Assembly (NCBI GenBank): GCA_002717835.1
Contig: PBBV01000026.1
Coordinates: 1 to 33,784, forward strand
Direction of reading: 5' to 3'
Length of the DNA stretch: 33,784 bases
Origin: Methanobacteriota archaeon
GTDB lineage: Archaea > Thermoplasmatota > Poseidoniia > Poseidoniales > Thalassarchaeaceae
Shown: piece by piece, positions 3,693 through 24,956 of the stretch
How positions within the stretch are numbered: the first letter of the stretch is position 1
Layout of the letters: each line of letters starts with the position of its first letter
Translations under genes and position numbers: made by a program
Notes under the pieces: generated by a model
Seen by the model: only the letters and a program-made list of their open reading frames with translations
What the model was told of the DNA's origin: nothing
Databases searched by the model: none

Positions 3693-6158
3693 ATGTCCAT
3701 GCGCCGGGTTTCACTATTGCTGGTCGCATTGATGTTCGGGACATCAATTTCCTTCGCAGTTACCGCTGACCCTTCCGCTCCCGACCACTCAAAAATGACA
3801 TCAGAACTAATCGACGAGCTCTCCAGCTCTGACAGAATAGAGACGATTATCCAATTTGATCAAGAGGCTAAAAACGACCTTTGGAGGGCCATAGAATCAA
3901 CAGGGGCAGAGTTAATCGGTGAAATGGAGATTCTTGATGGCGGGTTAATATCTGCAAGCCCTGAATCCATCGCAAAGATATCTAGATTCAGCTTCGTAAA
4001 ACACATGGAAGCAAACCTGCTCCTTCAGCACTTTTTCTTACCCGGCGATCAGAATAACGTCGAGTCAATGATGCACGAGACAGTCAATGTCGTCAATGCT
4101 AGCCTCGCCTGGCATAGGGCGATAATAGGGACTGATGGAATTTTGAAGACTGAATCAGATTTGTCTTTCACCGAATATGATGGTGAAGGAGCAACAGCAG
4201 TGGATCTGGATACAGGAATAGACGGCGAGCATCCAGATTTCGATTGTGGGGAACCTTGGTCCGGAGAAAAGCTGATTTGGTCGGCCAAATGGACTGGTGT
4301 GGCATGGGTTGACGCTCCAAACTGCAACTCTGATACTTCATCGGGTCACGGAACGCACGTAGGTGGAACAATTGCAGGAAACGGTGACGCATCTGCAGGA
4401 AGGCGATTAGGCACAGCCAAGGGGGCAACTATTGTGGCTCTTGGCACAGGAGATGGAGCATCCATCTTCGCAGCAGTGGAAGGATTGGAATGGACCTATC
4501 AGCATAGTAGGCCGGGGTTGAATGAATACAATATCCGGGTCGTATCAAATTCATGGGGCACCAATGGAGACTATAACCCCAGCAACGCAGTTACCCTACT
4601 CACTGACATGCTCACATATGACAACGATGTAGCTGTAATATTTGCTGCTTCAAATTCAGGTGGTAGCGGTGAAGAATCAGAAGATGACCTAAGGACCAAT
4701 GTCTATGCAAACACTCCGAGTGCTATTTCAATCGCTGCCCTTACTCATGATGGCTCTGCAGTAACCTCCTTCTCAAGTCGCGGTTGGTCAACCCAGCAAC
4801 ATACATGGCCTGATTTGGGAGCCCCGGGGAGGGATATCTGGGCCACTTCTCCCAGAGGTACTGCTATCGATGCGTCTACAACCGCACAGGGAGACATGTA
4901 CTACATGTCGATTTCAGGAACAAGCATGGCGACCCCCCACATCGGGGGGATAGCTACATTGTTACTTGCTGCTGCACCATCATTAGGGGCTGCAGACTAT
5001 CAGATCGAAGATCACGATGAAGGGGAAAGCCTCTATTTCGATGACACTGCAAAAGGCATTCAATTTGAGAATTGGAGGGAAAGAAATGAGTCAAGGGTCC
5101 ATGAAGTTGAACTCATTCTGGAGTTGACATCAAACTATGATTTACTTCGAAACTCTTGTGAAGAAGGAAATGACGACGATGCATGCAGCAATATCCCTGA
5201 GGATTGCCATGTCTCTGAAAACACCAGAAGATGCCATGATTGGAGAGTGGGCCATGGTCTTGTAGATACAGACAAGGCACTTGCTCTCGCAAGGACGCTT
5301 CAGGTGATGAGGGACCCTGATGAGGATGGCTTCGTCAACCACCCCAGTGCCACGGTATGGGATGCATTAGATCACTACGAGGATGTAATGGACATCCGTA
5401 ACATACCATTGAAGACTGACCAGCTCAGACATGCGTGGAAAGGTGAGTGGAGCCACTTTAACAACGGTCCTACCAGTACATTCGGTACATTCTCCACCGA
5501 CGATCGACATTACGTGTGGGTTCCAAATGGAACTTTTGAGATGCAGATATCATTCAGCTCCTTGGGCTGGGATATCAATACAGCTCAAGCAGCACAGATC
5601 AGGCCCAATGTAGATCTTGGTTCAGATGGGAATGACGATGCACAGGGCCAAGGAACAGCAGTCGGAGACACGATATACATCCAACTCGATGTAGATACTG
5701 AACATTGGAGTAAATGGGCTGAGTTCGATGTCACTGGGACTGCAGTCTCTCTACCATTCAACTCGATATTATCCGGTTCTGAATTCTTGGAGCCCCGGGT
5801 CCCGTACACTGTCGATGTACTGCTAACTATCGATGTGACCTCTGAAGTCATCGTAGAAGTCCCGATTAGAACTGACGGCTATTCAGATCTCGATCCTGCA
5901 CAACCATCTGATTTGTATGATCCATCCTCAGCTTTCGATTTGATCATGAGTCGTCCTGTGTACGATGAGAGCACCATACCGGCCTTCGAGGAAGAGACCA
6001 CATTCCTTTCAAAGTCAGGCATTTCCTTGTTATTCGTAATGGTGATTTCAACAATTCTACTATCAGCGATCGCTGTAGGCATATTCTTGTGGACACGGAG
6101 AGAGGAAAGCGAATTCGAAGCGGAAATTGTCAATGACGGCGATTCCACACAGTCATGA
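3693..6158 (+). CDS. Subtilisin-like (S8) serine protease, secreted and anchored by a C-terminal TM helix
   Basis: Signal peptide; Asp motif VDLDTGIDGEHPDF, His motif SSGHGTHVGG, Ser motif SGTSMATPHIGG; C-terminal helix GISLLFVMVISTILLSAIAVGIFLWTRR. Confidence 0.93.
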   Translation: MSMRRVSLLLVALMFGTSISFAVTADPSAPDHSKMTSELIDELSSSDRIETIIQFDQEAKNDLWRAIESTGAELIGEMEILDGGLISASPESIAKISRFSFVKHMEANLLLQHFFLPGDQNNVESMMHETVNVVNASLAWHRAIIGTDGILKTESDLSFTEYDGEGATAVDLDTGIDGEHPDFDCGEPWSGEKLIWSAKWTGVAWVDAPNCNSDTSSGHGTHVGGTIAGNGDASAGRRLGTAKGATIVALGTGDGASIFAAVEGLEWTYQHSRPGLNEYNIRVVSNSWGTNGDYNPSNAVTLLTDMLTYDNDVAVIFAASNSGGSGEESEDDLRTNVYANTPSAISIAALTHDGSAVTSFSSRGWSTQQHTWPDLGAPGRDIWATSPRGTAIDASTTAQGDMYYMSISGTSMATPHIGGIATLLLAAAPSLGAADYQIEDHDEGESLYFDDTAKGIQFENWRERNESRVHEVELILELTSNYDLLRNSCEEGNDDDACSNIPEDCHVSENTRRCHDWRVGHGLVDTDKALALARTLQVMRDPDEDGFVNHPSATVWDALDHYEDVMDIRNIPLKTDQLRHAWKGEWSHFNNGPTSTFGTFSTDDRHYVWVPNGTFEMQISFSSLGWDINTAQAAQIRPNVDLGSDGNDDAQGQGTAVGDTIYIQLDVDTEHWSKWAEFDVTGTAVSLPFNSILSGSEFLEPRVPYTVDVLLTIDVTSEVIVEVPIRTDGYSDLDPAQPSDLYDPSSAFDLIMSRPVYDESTIPAFEEETTFLSKSGISLLFVMVISTILLSAIAVGIFLWTRREESEFEAEIVNDGDSTQS

Positions 6159-17811: not shown

Positions 17812-19296
17812 CTAGTCGCCCCATGTGCCAGACAGAGACTTTCCAAGCACAACCAGAATTACGATGGCCACAATGATGCTCACTACCCGGGAATGACCAT
17901 TTCCAACCTCGTCACCGGCTATCGGATAGTCTTCATCCTCCTCATATTCCATTTCTATCAGACTTCCGTCTGCTGAGATTTCAAGCTCGAACTCTGCTCC
18001 GTCGCGAACAACGAGAAGCTCGTAAATCAGGACGTCATCTTCGTATCCCAACTCCACCTGCGTTATCACACCGTCCTGAACTTCTGCGAGGGCGGTTTCT
18101 ACTACTCTCGGCGGGATGTTTTCGAGGGAGAGGGCTTCGCTAATCCCATCTTCACGACCTAAGTCCCCCTCAATCGAGATCAAGGGATCATTAGGATCGT
18201 AATCCGAGTTGTCGCCGACTCCGTCACCGTCCGAATCCGAGAATTCCCCAATATCCATCGGGAAGTCGTCTGAGTTGTCGCCGACACCGTCCCCGTCTGA
18301 GTCAGTCGATTCATTTCTGTCGGTTGGGAATGCATCAGAATTGTCACCCACTCCATCCATGTCTGTATCGGACCATTCATCGGGATTCTCGGGGAAGACA
18401 TCAATGCTATCGGTCACACCGTCACCGTCGCTGTCGTCCTCGTCATCTTCGATCCCGTCATTATCGTCATCTGTGTCGGCGATGTCTCCTAACCCATCGC
18501 CGTCGCTGTCTCTGAACTCTGATGGGTCGTGAGGGAAGTGGTCACTGTTGTCCCCTACTCCATCACCGTCTGAATCACTCCATTCTGTTGAGTTGTAAGG
18601 AAAGGCATCCAGTGAGTCAATATGACCGTCATTATCCGAGTCGCGATCCACTATGCGTACAGAATTCGTAGATGATACCAAGTCTCCATATTCAATTCCG
18701 TCACTTGGTATGATAGATACAGTCCAAGACTCTCCAATAGAAGTGGCAAAGAAGGGCAAAACTCTGTAGCCGTCGAATTCGGTCACCGTTGTGTTGTTTC
18801 TCGACCATCGGATGATACTCCCAAATTCAAGATCCCCGTCATAATCGTGATAGTCGTATGTACAGATCAGAACTAGATCGTAATAAGCAGTTATGACAGG
18901 AGTTGTTGAACCAGCAATGATAACCGCAACATTAGATGCCATTGGTGGCGAATTTACTGGTTCATTAGTCTGATTTCCACCCTGTCCATTGGAATCTCCG
19001 TCATCGTCTTCGTCGTCGTCATCGTCTTCGTCGTCATCGTCGTCATCGTCTTCGTCGTCATCGTCTTCGTCGTCATCGTCTTCGTCGTCATCATCATCTT
19101 CAGATGAAGAAAATAAATCGTGATTACTCGGCGTTAGAGATTCGACCAATTCATCATCAGTGATTAGTGCCTGTGTTGACATTAAGAGTATGAGTCCAAC
19201 TAAAAGTGGTTTGAGGAGGGACGTCAGGAGTTTGACGGGAGTCAGACGCCTTGGCTTTACGGGATGTTGGCAATCCTGAAAACCATGCACAGCCAC
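17812..19296 (-). CDS. Secreted or membrane-anchored Ca2+-binding protein with poly-Asp/Glu tract and thrombospondin type 3 repeats
   Basis: Acidic DDDDEDDDDEDDD tract, repeated DSDGDGVGDNSDxFPxDxxE, C-terminal hydrophobic helix VVSIIVAIVILVVLGKSL. Start may be downstream of 19296. Confidence 0.88.
   Translation of the reverse strand: MAVHGFQDCQHPVKPRRLTPVKLLTSLLKPLLVGLILLMSTQALITDDELVESLTPSNHDLFSSSEDDDDDEDDDDEDDDDEDDDDDDDEDDDDDEDDDGDSNGQGGNQTNEPVNSPPMASNVAVIIAGSTTPVITAYYDLVLICTYDYHDYDGDLEFGSIIRWSRNNTTVTEFDGYRVLPFFATSIGESWTVSIIPSDGIEYGDLVSSTNSVRIVDRDSDNDGHIDSLDAFPYNSTEWSDSDGDGVGDNSDHFPHDPSEFRDSDGDGLGDIADTDDDNDGIEDDEDDSDGDGVTDSIDVFPENPDEWSDTDMDGVGDNSDAFPTDRNESTDSDGDGVGDNSDDFPMDIGEFSDSDGDGVGDNSDYDPNDPLISIEGDLGREDGISEALSLENIPPRVVETALAEVQDGVITQVELGYEDDVLIYELLVVRDGAEFELEISADGSLIEMEYEEDEDYPIAGDEVGNGHSRVVSIIVAIVILVVLGKSLSGTWGD
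18999..19103. repeat. Low-complexity (GTC/GTCATCGTCTTC)n tract encoding poly-Asp/Glu
   Basis: gtcatcgtcttcgtcgtcgtcatcgtcttcgtcgtcatcgtcgtc... visible by eye within the TSP3 gene. Confidence 0.85.
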
Positions 19297-21686: not shown

Positions 21687-23936
21687 GTGATTCAATCACC
21701 TACCCAACACAGGGAGGTATTGAAAGCGGCCGCACCTCGCTTCACATCCAAAGGGAGGGCGGCCAACGTGGATTCTGAAGTTCTTGAGGGAATGAAGGTC
21801 TCCGAACTCAAGATATTGTGCAAGGAAAAGGGATTGCGAGTTACGGGCAATAAGTCCGAGCTAATCGAACGGATTCAACAGTCTAGCTCTAACTCTAAAT
21901 CCGTAAACAATGATACGACCATGGATGCAGACATTGACAATGCCATCGATAGATTACTCGATCGACATGATCGAAGAAAACCCGAGACTGTTCACAAGGA
22001 ACCACCAGAAGCCCTTGTAACGCCCATAGTCGAAGCAGAGATAATCGAAGAAGAGGAAACAGCACAAGAGGAACCAATAAAGGAGCTGATCCTCATAGAG
22101 GATGAACCCGATATCGAAATGGATAGAGAAAAGCAAGAACATCCTGTAGAAAGGCAGGATAACAAGCCCCTGAATAAGAAGGTTCAGAAGAAGACCGAGA
22201 GAGAAAGCGTTTCGTCATCACGACCATTCAGAATCACTCGACTTCAGGTGGCAGCGGGATTCGCAGCCGCTCTGATTCTCAGCGCAACTCTCTGGGTATT
22301 CTTGCAACGCGACTCGTCTTTCACAGCACAACAGGTCAGGTACGGCGATTCGATTGAATTCTCAATCCAACAAACTACGATCAACATAGAAGGCGATGAC
22401 ATGGTGGCGATTATCAGAGACGCCATCTCTCCGAGCGCCTTCGATCAGGTCTGTTCCGAGATTGATATTGATATCTCGGGAATGGGTTCTCTCTCAGTGG
22501 CAAGAGGCACTGATCTCGACACCGTATTCCCCAGCGATACAGAGCATAGGGGGGCGTACAGCGTGTATGATGCATTTGGGAGAGTAAGTTTAGCGGCTAA
22601 ACAGTCGGTGAATCATGAGTTAGATGTGGATCTTCAGGGGAAAACGTGGAGAGAAAATGGCATAGAGTGCAGCAATGCGGGTTGGTCTTATCCCGAGAAC
22701 AAATTGTCCATGACCACCGAATCATGGAGGCACATATCCGACAGAGATGTCATCAGGACAGAAACAGATCTAGAATTCACTGATTCTGACGGAGAGTCAA
22801 CACACGTCGCCGCCACGACTTTCGGCACAAGCATACTTCCAGGCCTAGGCGCCGTTGCGCCGTTGCTTTCAATCCCACTACTTCCGATGGATCTGCAAGA
22901 ATTCTTCGGAGACACCGTGCTCAAGGAAGGAGCATCATCTTCTGAGGATGATTCATGGACCTGGAACGTGAAAAAGGAACGGAATGATCCAATCCACGGA
23001 TATGTATATCCGATCTCTATCTCCAATGATGAGATAGAAGCCTGCTTCGGATATCTTAGAATGGACATTTTGGTAGATCCTGATATTCCTTGGCCGGTGC
23101 AACAGACTGCAGACGTAAGATTAGACAAATCTCTGGCAACCTCTCAATGCAGCGTCTTCGCTAGTGCGGTCAGCGATGCTGCATTGCCTGAGGGAAGATT
23201 AGACATGCGGATGGATATGACAGTTACAACATCATCCCAGGGGACGAATGAGATTGATTGGTACGATGAATACGATTCTGAGCCGTCACCAGGAGACGAT
23301 CGACCAACCAGCGCAGGCAAAAAAGAATGGGCATCGCACATGCCCGATGAGTCTGACAGTAGAGTAAGTCTAGAACAGATTACGAATTGTCTTCTAGCCT
23401 CGCACCCCCTCTCTGACGCAGCCAGAGCACTCGAAGGAGGAGGATACGTTTGGGAGGCAATCTTTCTGTTAAACAATGAGGAGTGGAATCTCTCATGGGT
23501 AGACATTGAAGATCAATCAGGGTGGATAATACTCGACTGGGAACCCAATGACGAGTCATGTCCTGTGATGGACTCAGGAGACTGGGGTAATGACAATCCA
23601 GTCTCTTGGGATAAAACCGCTATCCCTTCAACCCTAACTTTGGATTATCTAGAGAATAGGCTTCTCAATGAGAATCGTTACTCGGAAGTCAATGAAGTGA
23701 TAATTCCAGACTCACCAGAAGAGCGGCAATACCTTGGATACAGGGCAGTATCCGGGGAAATTGACGACATCTCGGATTTACTATCCTCCGAACTTTCAAC
23801 AGGAGTCGTCACTGTTGTGTTGCACAGCGAGTGGGCCAGTTCTGACAATACAAGGGACTACACGTTTGACGTTGCGATGGATGCAACAACGTCCAGAGTG
23901 ATTGGCTGGATTCAGATTTCTACCTCGTCTGAATGA
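21687..23936 (+). CDS. SAP-domain protein with central TM helix and large uncharacterised C-terminal region
   Basis: MKVSELKILCKEKGLRVTGNKSELIERIQQS (SAP motif), charged linker, TM LQVAAGFAAALILSATLWVFLQ, then ~540 aa. Confidence 0.85.
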   Translation: MIQSPTQHREVLKAAAPRFTSKGRAANVDSEVLEGMKVSELKILCKEKGLRVTGNKSELIERIQQSSSNSKSVNNDTTMDADIDNAIDRLLDRHDRRKPETVHKEPPEALVTPIVEAEIIEEEETAQEEPIKELILIEDEPDIEMDREKQEHPVERQDNKPLNKKVQKKTERESVSSSRPFRITRLQVAAGFAAALILSATLWVFLQRDSSFTAQQVRYGDSIEFSIQQTTINIEGDDMVAIIRDAISPSAFDQVCSEIDIDISGMGSLSVARGTDLDTVFPSDTEHRGAYSVYDAFGRVSLAAKQSVNHELDVDLQGKTWRENGIECSNAGWSYPENKLSMTTESWRHISDRDVIRTETDLEFTDSDGESTHVAATTFGTSILPGLGAVAPLLSIPLLPMDLQEFFGDTVLKEGASSSEDDSWTWNVKKERNDPIHGYVYPISISNDEIEACFGYLRMDILVDPDIPWPVQQTADVRLDKSLATSQCSVFASAVSDAALPEGRLDMRMDMTVTTSSQGTNEIDWYDEYDSEPSPGDDRPTSAGKKEWASHMPDESDSRVSLEQITNCLLASHPLSDAARALEGGGYVWEAIFLLNNEEWNLSWVDIEDQSGWIILDWEPNDESCPVMDSGDWGNDNPVSWDKTAIPSTLTLDYLENRLLNENRYSEVNEVIIPDSPEERQYLGYRAVSGEIDDISDLLSSELSTGVVTVVLHSEWASSDNTRDYTFDVAMDATTSRVIGWIQISTSSE

Positions 23937-24014: not shown

Positions 24015-24956
24015 GTGTTTGAGGGGGGCACCCACAGTGCTAACGATGGTGCCGTGGATCCCAAAGTCATCGATGTTGAGTTTGTTGAACACGAGAGAGA
24101 TGATCCCACGAGATCTAATGTGAGGCTTCCGAACCACAATCCTCTCGCATTTCCAAGGGGCGCGTCATCGCAAAAAGGCCAAGCTAGGGTTGTTACGATT
24201 ACCAATCAGAAAGGCGGGGTTGGGAAGACTACTTCAGTCATCAATATCGCGGCGCAGCTCGGTCTTAGAGGATATCGGGTACTGGTTATTGATGCAGATG
24301 CGCAGGGTAATTGTGCAACTGGACTCGGAGTCGATAAAAGACTAGTAAAAGCCACGACTAAAGACCTCATACTTCAACCCGAGCGAGCGATAGAAGCACG
24401 TCATCAAACAGCTGTCGATGGTGTCCATATGATCGTTGGAGATAGATCTCTTGTGGGGTTAGATCAAGAACTTCTACGCCAATTAGGACGTGAGAAAAGA
24501 CTCTCAGATGCAATTGCTCCGTTGCGTCCTCATTACGATCTAATCATAATTGACACGCCCCCCTCCCTCGGCATTGTAACGGTGAATGCATTGGTTGCAA
24601 GTCATGGACTGGTTGTACCGGTCCAGACTGAGTATTTTGCACTGGAAGGACTAGCAATGTTGGCCGGAACCGTTAGGGAAGTAAGGAATCTTTTCACTGC
24701 ATCCCTAGGAGTGGATGGAATATTATTGACAATGCATAATGAAAGAACACTTCTGAACGTGCAGGTTGCAAATGAACTCCGGGACACATACGGCTCACTA
24801 ATCGTAGAACCCGCAGTGAGGAGAAATATACGGCTAGCAGAGGCACCAGCACACGGCGTCCCGATCCATCTACATGACCCATCAAGTCATGGTGGTAGCG
24901 ACTATCTTTCAGTCACATTGGAACTCGAAAGAAGGTGGGGGCTAACTCCTCCATGA
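24015..24956 (+). CDS. ParA/Soj-family ATPase
   Basis: VVTITNQKGGVGKTTSVINIAAQLGLRGYRVLVIDADAQGNCATGLG (deviant Walker A), DLIIIDTPPSLGIVTVNAL. Start uncertain (GTG 24015 or 24054). Confidence 0.93.
   Translation: MFEGGTHSANDGAVDPKVIDVEFVEHERDDPTRSNVRLPNHNPLAFPRGASSQKGQARVVTITNQKGGVGKTTSVINIAAQLGLRGYRVLVIDADAQGNCATGLGVDKRLVKATTKDLILQPERAIEARHQTAVDGVHMIVGDRSLVGLDQELLRQLGREKRLSDAIAPLRPHYDLIIIDTPPSLGIVTVNALVASHGLVVPVQTEYFALEGLAMLAGTVREVRNLFTASLGVDGILLTMHNERTLLNVQVANELRDTYGSLIVEPAVRRNIRLAEAPAHGVPIHLHDPSSHGGSDYLSVTLELERRWGLTPP

Follow-up and report, generated by a model that had tools for sequence, protein, structure and literature searches.

A conserved SAP-domain membrane protein of Poseidoniales, encoded upstream of a ParA ATPase in Thalassarchaeaceae, as a candidate nucleic-acid tether

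Fungal HeH proteins of the inner nuclear membrane bear a helix-extension-helix domain that binds DNA; these proteins can contact DNA directly and keep chromatin at the envelope (PMC4810098; chromatin tethering, PMC4490570). For the pneumococcus, RocS is reported to link DNA to the membrane and to interact with ParB (PMC13042908, PMC11500499). Chromosome segregation in archaea is poorly understood beyond the SegAB system of the Sulfolobales (reviewed in PMC7617429). No chromosome-to-envelope tether was found in the archaeal literature searched, and a search combining SAP with Poseidoniales or with archaeal segregation returned no paper. Here we describe a protein of abundant planktonic archaea, referred to as the SAP-TM protein, which is predicted to expose a nucleic-acid-binding domain to the cytoplasm and a folded region to the exterior and which represents a concrete, testable candidate for such a tether.

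The SAP-TM protein is encoded in a stretch of 33,784 nucleotides (the window), which is contig C26 of a host genome of 1.21 Mb and 79% completeness. Its open reading frame is real and intact and spans exactly positions 21687-23936 of the forward strand, with a GTG start and a length of 749 aa. The start codon is uncertain because residues 1-32 are conserved within the same genus only. The original prediction of an N-terminal SAP motif, a charged Glu/Lys-rich linker, one transmembrane helix and about 540 residues lacking a recognised domain was borne out in all four parts. The SAP domain (residues 33-65, 21783-21881 (+)) matched Pfam PF02037 with an E value of 2.2e-11 and a score of 43.5 bits, compared to a curated cut-off of 23.9, and was also recovered in a whole-genome scan. 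It is followed by the linker, which covers roughly residues 66-180 and in the alignment appears as an acidic, probably disordered cytosolic stretch at about residues 66-179 (21882-22223 (+)), and by one strong hydrophobic helix in the hydropathy scan at about residues 186-207 (22242-22307 (+)). The remainder, residues 212-749 (22320-23933 (+)), contained neither a Pfam nor an NCBIfam domain; for the window protein as a whole, nothing besides SAP exceeded the Pfam cut-off and the NCBIfam scan gave no match. SAP was detected in all 41 members scanned, four of which additionally matched Rho_N, and its residues L41, G54, K56 and R62 were invariant in 45 of 45 aligned members. The linker varied in length between 62 and 174 aa. 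The ligand of the SAP domain would be nucleic acid, presumably DNA.

Orthologues of the SAP-TM protein occurred across 19 genera of both Poseidoniales families, nearly always in single copy. Using the ectodomain alone, matches were obtained in 118 of 146 genomes of the class, all belonging to these two families, and in no genome of a third family (f3) that is probably MGIII. A profile of 85 ectodomains matched 46 Poseidoniales genomes; among the other Thermoplasmatota of a sample of 194 it matched none. Real and conserved, the architecture is confined to the order Poseidoniales (Marine Group II). With the families as defined in PMC6461757, the one with mostly smaller genomes (f1) appears to correspond to Thalassarchaeaceae (MGIIb) and the one with larger genomes (f2) to Poseidoniaceae (MGIIa). 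At one locus (L035:6001-8251) the gene was broken into two overlapping frames, probably by an assembly or sequencing error. Genome G045 harboured two divergent SAP-TM and ParA loci, L059 on contig C41 and L060 on contig C9, which resemble two genera; this genome is probably mixed.

The cysteines of the C-terminal region had been described as regularly placed. The six ectodomain cysteines (residues 256, 328, 453, 488, 568 and 625; codons at 22452, 22668, 23043, 23148, 23388 and 23559) are in fact irregularly spaced; however, they proved invariant in 45 of 45 orthologues, which is more than chance would produce, and presumably form disulfides. Many tryptophan, glycine and proline residues of the ectodomain were likewise invariant among the 45 aligned members. 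The 25 residues flanking the transmembrane helix contained on average 4.0 lysines and arginines on the N-terminal side versus 1.7 on the C-terminal side; positive charge was greater on the N-terminal side in 35 members, with the reverse in 7. This charge bias, together with an even number of invariant cysteines that are all located C-terminal of the helix, favours the orientation originally proposed, with SAP inside and the ectodomain outside. With one transmembrane helix and a positive-inside flank, the protein is predicted to be a bitopic N-in membrane protein. Three members scored below the hydropathy threshold, and a weaker hydrophobic stretch at about residues 383-401 was not conserved across members.

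In this arrangement the SAP-TM protein is similar to HeH/LEM proteins such as yeast Src1/Heh1 and MAN1, which also have an N-terminal SAP or SAP-like domain on the genome side, a long linker and a transmembrane anchor. The likeness is one of architecture and a short SAP motif, and no further sequence similarity is claimed. Unlike HeH/LEM proteins, in which two transmembrane helices are combined with an MSC domain at the C-terminus, facing the nucleus, the SAP-TM protein has one conserved helix and a predicted cysteine-rich ectodomain outside, and no MSC domain was detected in the Pfam scan of the window protein and 41 members; it is not assigned to this group. Similarly, RocS of Streptococcus pneumoniae combines an N-terminal DNA-binding domain (a predicted function of SAP in our case) with a membrane anchor on the C-terminal side. 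However, RocS binds DNA through another type of domain, contains a coiled coil and an amphipathic helix and has neither a transmembrane helix nor an ectodomain, which makes the comparison an analogy only.

A ParA-family gene had been noted immediately downstream on the same strand. This gene, located at 24015-24956 (+), encodes a Soj-type ATPase of 313 aa that matched Pfam AAA_31 with an E value of 8.4e-50. The AAA_31 domain and a KGGVGKT P-loop are features in common with other Walker-type partition ATPases of the ParA/Soj group, and a Soj-type ParA, as in ParABS systems, is present. Unlike standard ParA/Soj proteins, it has an N-terminal extension of about 55 residues with an acidic-hydrophobic motif, and no ParB adjoins ParA in the neighbourhood of the loci examined. 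Of 14 genomes searched with the ParB_N profile, 10 gave no match, and the matches in the other four were all short or weak. Orc1/Cdc6 genes were located as well.

The proposed co-conservation with ParA held for adjacency, but not for the occurrence of the SAP-TM protein itself. Across 98 genomes, the orthologous ParA (identity of at least 54%) was the next gene downstream of SAP-TM, in the same orientation, in 56 of 58 cases, with a median gap of 130 bp between the matched regions. In the two exceptions, both genes were on different contigs and the SAP-TM gene was near a contig end. In Thalassarchaeaceae, ParA followed directly in every examined locus that extended far enough. In contrast, most of the examined loci of Poseidoniaceae had no adjacent ParA, the only exceptions being L074, L084 and L085, and most Poseidoniaceae lacked the ParA orthologue but retained the SAP-TM protein including the SAP domain and the linker motif described below. 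The SAP-TM protein therefore cannot depend on ParA.

A short motif, [VIL][VILFM][ED][AVG]E[VILFM], was shared by the SAP-TM linker and the ParA N-terminal extension. It was present in 39 of 45 linkers, compared to 0.5 expected after shuffling, often in a doubled form (for example VLEAEILEAEI), and in 20 of 29 ParA N-termini, compared to 0.1 expected. The copies in the window are IVEAEIIE (22026-22048 (+)) and VIDVEFVE (24066-24088 (+)), respectively. Elsewhere, the motif occurred once among all ectodomains and never in ParA cores. Since the members share descent, these counts show conservation and not independent origins. Searched across the whole genome as a degenerate DNA pattern, the motif gave three matches, two of them in SAP-TM and ParA and the third within an ORF of 462 aa that is unrelated and located on a different contig. 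The third match was judged to be due to chance; a control pattern likewise gave one match. A dedicated ParA-binding site was dropped as an explanation because the linker motif persists in genomes without a ParA orthologue, which makes a common third partner likelier than a direct site for ParA. Linker and ParA N-terminus may bind one and the same partner through the motif, which may resemble the C-terminal DAEFEEV motif of DnaK.

From the computed architecture, conservation, linkage, shared motif and ectodomain model we infer, tentatively and at somewhat less than even probability, that the SAP-TM protein tethers nucleic acid, likely the nucleoid, to the membrane and that ParA is an optional partner. 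SAP, in the cytosol and carried by a long, flexible acidic arm, would bind nucleic acid, most likely the nucleoid, while the transmembrane helix and a disulfide-stabilised ectodomain would fix the protein in the envelope, so that the chromosome would be tethered to the envelope. Where a co-directional Soj-type ParA is present, as in Thalassarchaeaceae and part of the Poseidoniaceae, it might use or position the tether in nucleoid segregation or placement, and would do so in genomes that mostly have no recognisable ParB. Tethering is supported by the presence of SAP in all members scanned, by the invariance of G54, K56 and R62, and by the charge bias and the cysteines on the C-terminal side; further support comes from the restriction to Poseidoniales, the linkage to ParA, which outlasts that to the next gene (see below), the shared motif, the scarcity of ParB_N matches and the precedents set by the fungal HeH proteins and RocS. 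It is weakened by the acidic character of the linker, which is unhelpful for DNA binding, by the retention of both protein and linker motif in most Poseidoniaceae despite the missing ParA orthologue, and by several findings considered in the following. We consider it doubtful that the SAP-TM protein constitutes a new type of ParA partner that replaces ParB, in which a membrane-spanning SAP protein would couple the nucleoid to an extracytoplasmic complex as a functional counterpart of the chromatin tethers of the nuclear envelope.

The tether is also weakened by the conserved ectodomain, which at 540 residues exceeds the needs of an anchor. The proposed AlphaFold and Foldseek analysis of this region yielded a confident, beta-barrel-like model without a clear match in the PDB. 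The AlphaFold2 model of the whole ectodomain, based on 85 sequences, had a pLDDT of 85.3 and a pTM of 0.83. Part 1 (residues 212-523, 22320-23255 (+)), which has very long strands in a beta-barrel-like arrangement and contains four of the six cysteines, had a pLDDT of 87.2 and a pTM of 0.84 when modelled alone. Part 2 (23307-23933 (+)), with the remaining two cysteines, was modelled as two units of a helix plus an antiparallel sheet, and might in our own reading be PepSY/cystatin-like; this likeness is one of secondary structure alone, and PepSY (PF03413) matched none of 41 members. In Foldseek searches of the PDB with the whole ectodomain, the best-supported match was EipB/DUF1849 of Brucella (probability 0.97-1.00 and E about 1e-3 for the best chains), an envelope protein that has been likened to LolA/LolB (PMC10787603) and with which, as with LolA/LolB-like barrels, the model weakly shares a periplasmic beta-spiral architecture. 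However, the TM-score normalised to the target was at most 0.43, where more than 0.5 would be needed, identity was about 6-9%, and no match was obtained in Pfam or when the ectodomain was searched as a sequence profile against the PDB. EipB was also not among the top matches with part 1 alone, and the assignment to EipB/LolA was dropped. Part 1 alone matched a YceI-type polyisoprenoid-binding protein (probability 0.75) and apoB; the remaining matches of both searches were mostly porin noise. The top PDB matches included no LolA/LppX-like lipoprotein carrier with a credible probability (LmcA, 0.18). Since no fold match passes the standard for membership, with all TM-scores below 0.45, lipid binding by the ectodomain is only a hint.

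These features point to an alternative in which the ectodomain is the business end and acts on a lipid, a glycan or an envelope complex, ParA spaces this complex via the nucleoid, as in ParA-type cargo positioning by McdA, ParC or MipZ-like proteins, and SAP adds a nucleoid contact. We regard this as possible, if rather unlikely. The size of the ectodomain, its invariant cysteine, tryptophan, glycine and proline residues and the weak matches to EipB and YceI would be in line with it. So would a second membrane protein that precedes the SAP-TM gene in deep lineages: many loci of Poseidoniaceae and deep Thalassarchaeaceae contain, between RimK and the SAP-TM gene and in the same orientation, a gene for a protein with two transmembrane helices that is rich in GPSGPP (collagen-like repeats; for example L061:4723-5949, L066:5089-6111 and L085:3254-4405). 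This protein matched no Pfam family and is absent from that position in the genus of the window. On the other hand, the low TM-scores make lipid binding a guess, and most Poseidoniaceae retain the SAP-TM protein although they lack the ParA orthologue.

Tethering of the nucleoid in particular is further weakened by the abundance of SAP domains in the clade, one of them on a ribosomal protein, so that RNA may be bound instead. In six Poseidoniia genomes, 4-9 SAP domains were detected per genome, compared to none in four other Thermoplasmatota and 14 control genomes; a looser cut-off added one weak SAP in M. jannaschii. This apparent expansion deserves attention, as does the conserved ectodomain fold without a clear PDB counterpart. 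According to our reading of the translations, the other four SAP domains of the host are located in ribosomal protein L32e, a 117-aa protein with SAP, acidic linker and transmembrane helix, a coiled-coil protein and a 489-aa protein. The L32e gene (L127, contig C4, about 5292-5471), with an N-terminal SAP and an acidic linker, lies among other ribosomal protein genes. The 117-aa protein (L128, contig C7:71477-71803) has an N-terminal SAP and a C-terminal helix, representing a minimal SAP membrane protein, and has clear orthologues in the genus of the window. The fusion to L32e makes binding of RNA or ribosomes a serious rival: SAP, as a general module of the clade and in four members alongside Rho_N, might bind rRNA, mRNA or ribosomes and thereby allow the protein to retain transcripts or ribosomes at the membrane, for instance close to sites of surface-protein secretion. 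However, it is not obvious what the neighbouring ParA would do in such a scheme, the examined loci have no ribosomal or secretion genes adjoining the SAP-TM gene, and we consider this alternative unlikely overall.

For the nucleoid tether, finally, the linkage to ParA within Thalassarchaeaceae is weak functional evidence because gene order is generally conserved around the locus. In the window, an EamA transporter gene lies beyond ParA, and the SAP-TM gene is preceded by a divergent gene for a RimK-type ligase and then by one for an XerA/XerC-like recombinase. In the loci examined, the RimK and recombinase genes were conserved as well as ParA or better, and w199 and PUA about equally; the notion that linkage proves function was accordingly rejected. 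In the deep genera of Thalassarchaeaceae (L059-L065), the ParA adjacency persists whereas EamA beyond it is gone. A last alternative is that SAP mediates protein-protein contacts or binds nucleic acid weakly, and that the position of parA reflects inherited gene order in small syntenic genomes, with no functional link between the two genes. This would agree with the conservation of these other neighbours and with the missing ParA in most of family f2, but is distinctly improbable in view of the motif common to linker and ParA and of an adjacency that outlasts that of EamA and always involves co-directional genes separated by a short gap. Also in the window, a 494-aa protein encoded at 17812-19296 (-) gave a sub-threshold PepSY match (E 0.002) and no other clear domain; it is not a conserved neighbour in the loci examined. 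A second ParA-type ATPase, about 36% identical, was present in most Poseidoniales genomes at a different site, often 20-60 kb from the SAP-TM locus, and is the only ParA of the other Poseidoniaceae. It is located at C27:7105-7935 in the host genome (L147) and at C1:483605-484462 in genome G043 (L145), where it adjoins genes for NDK, an IF-2-like GTPase and MoxR.
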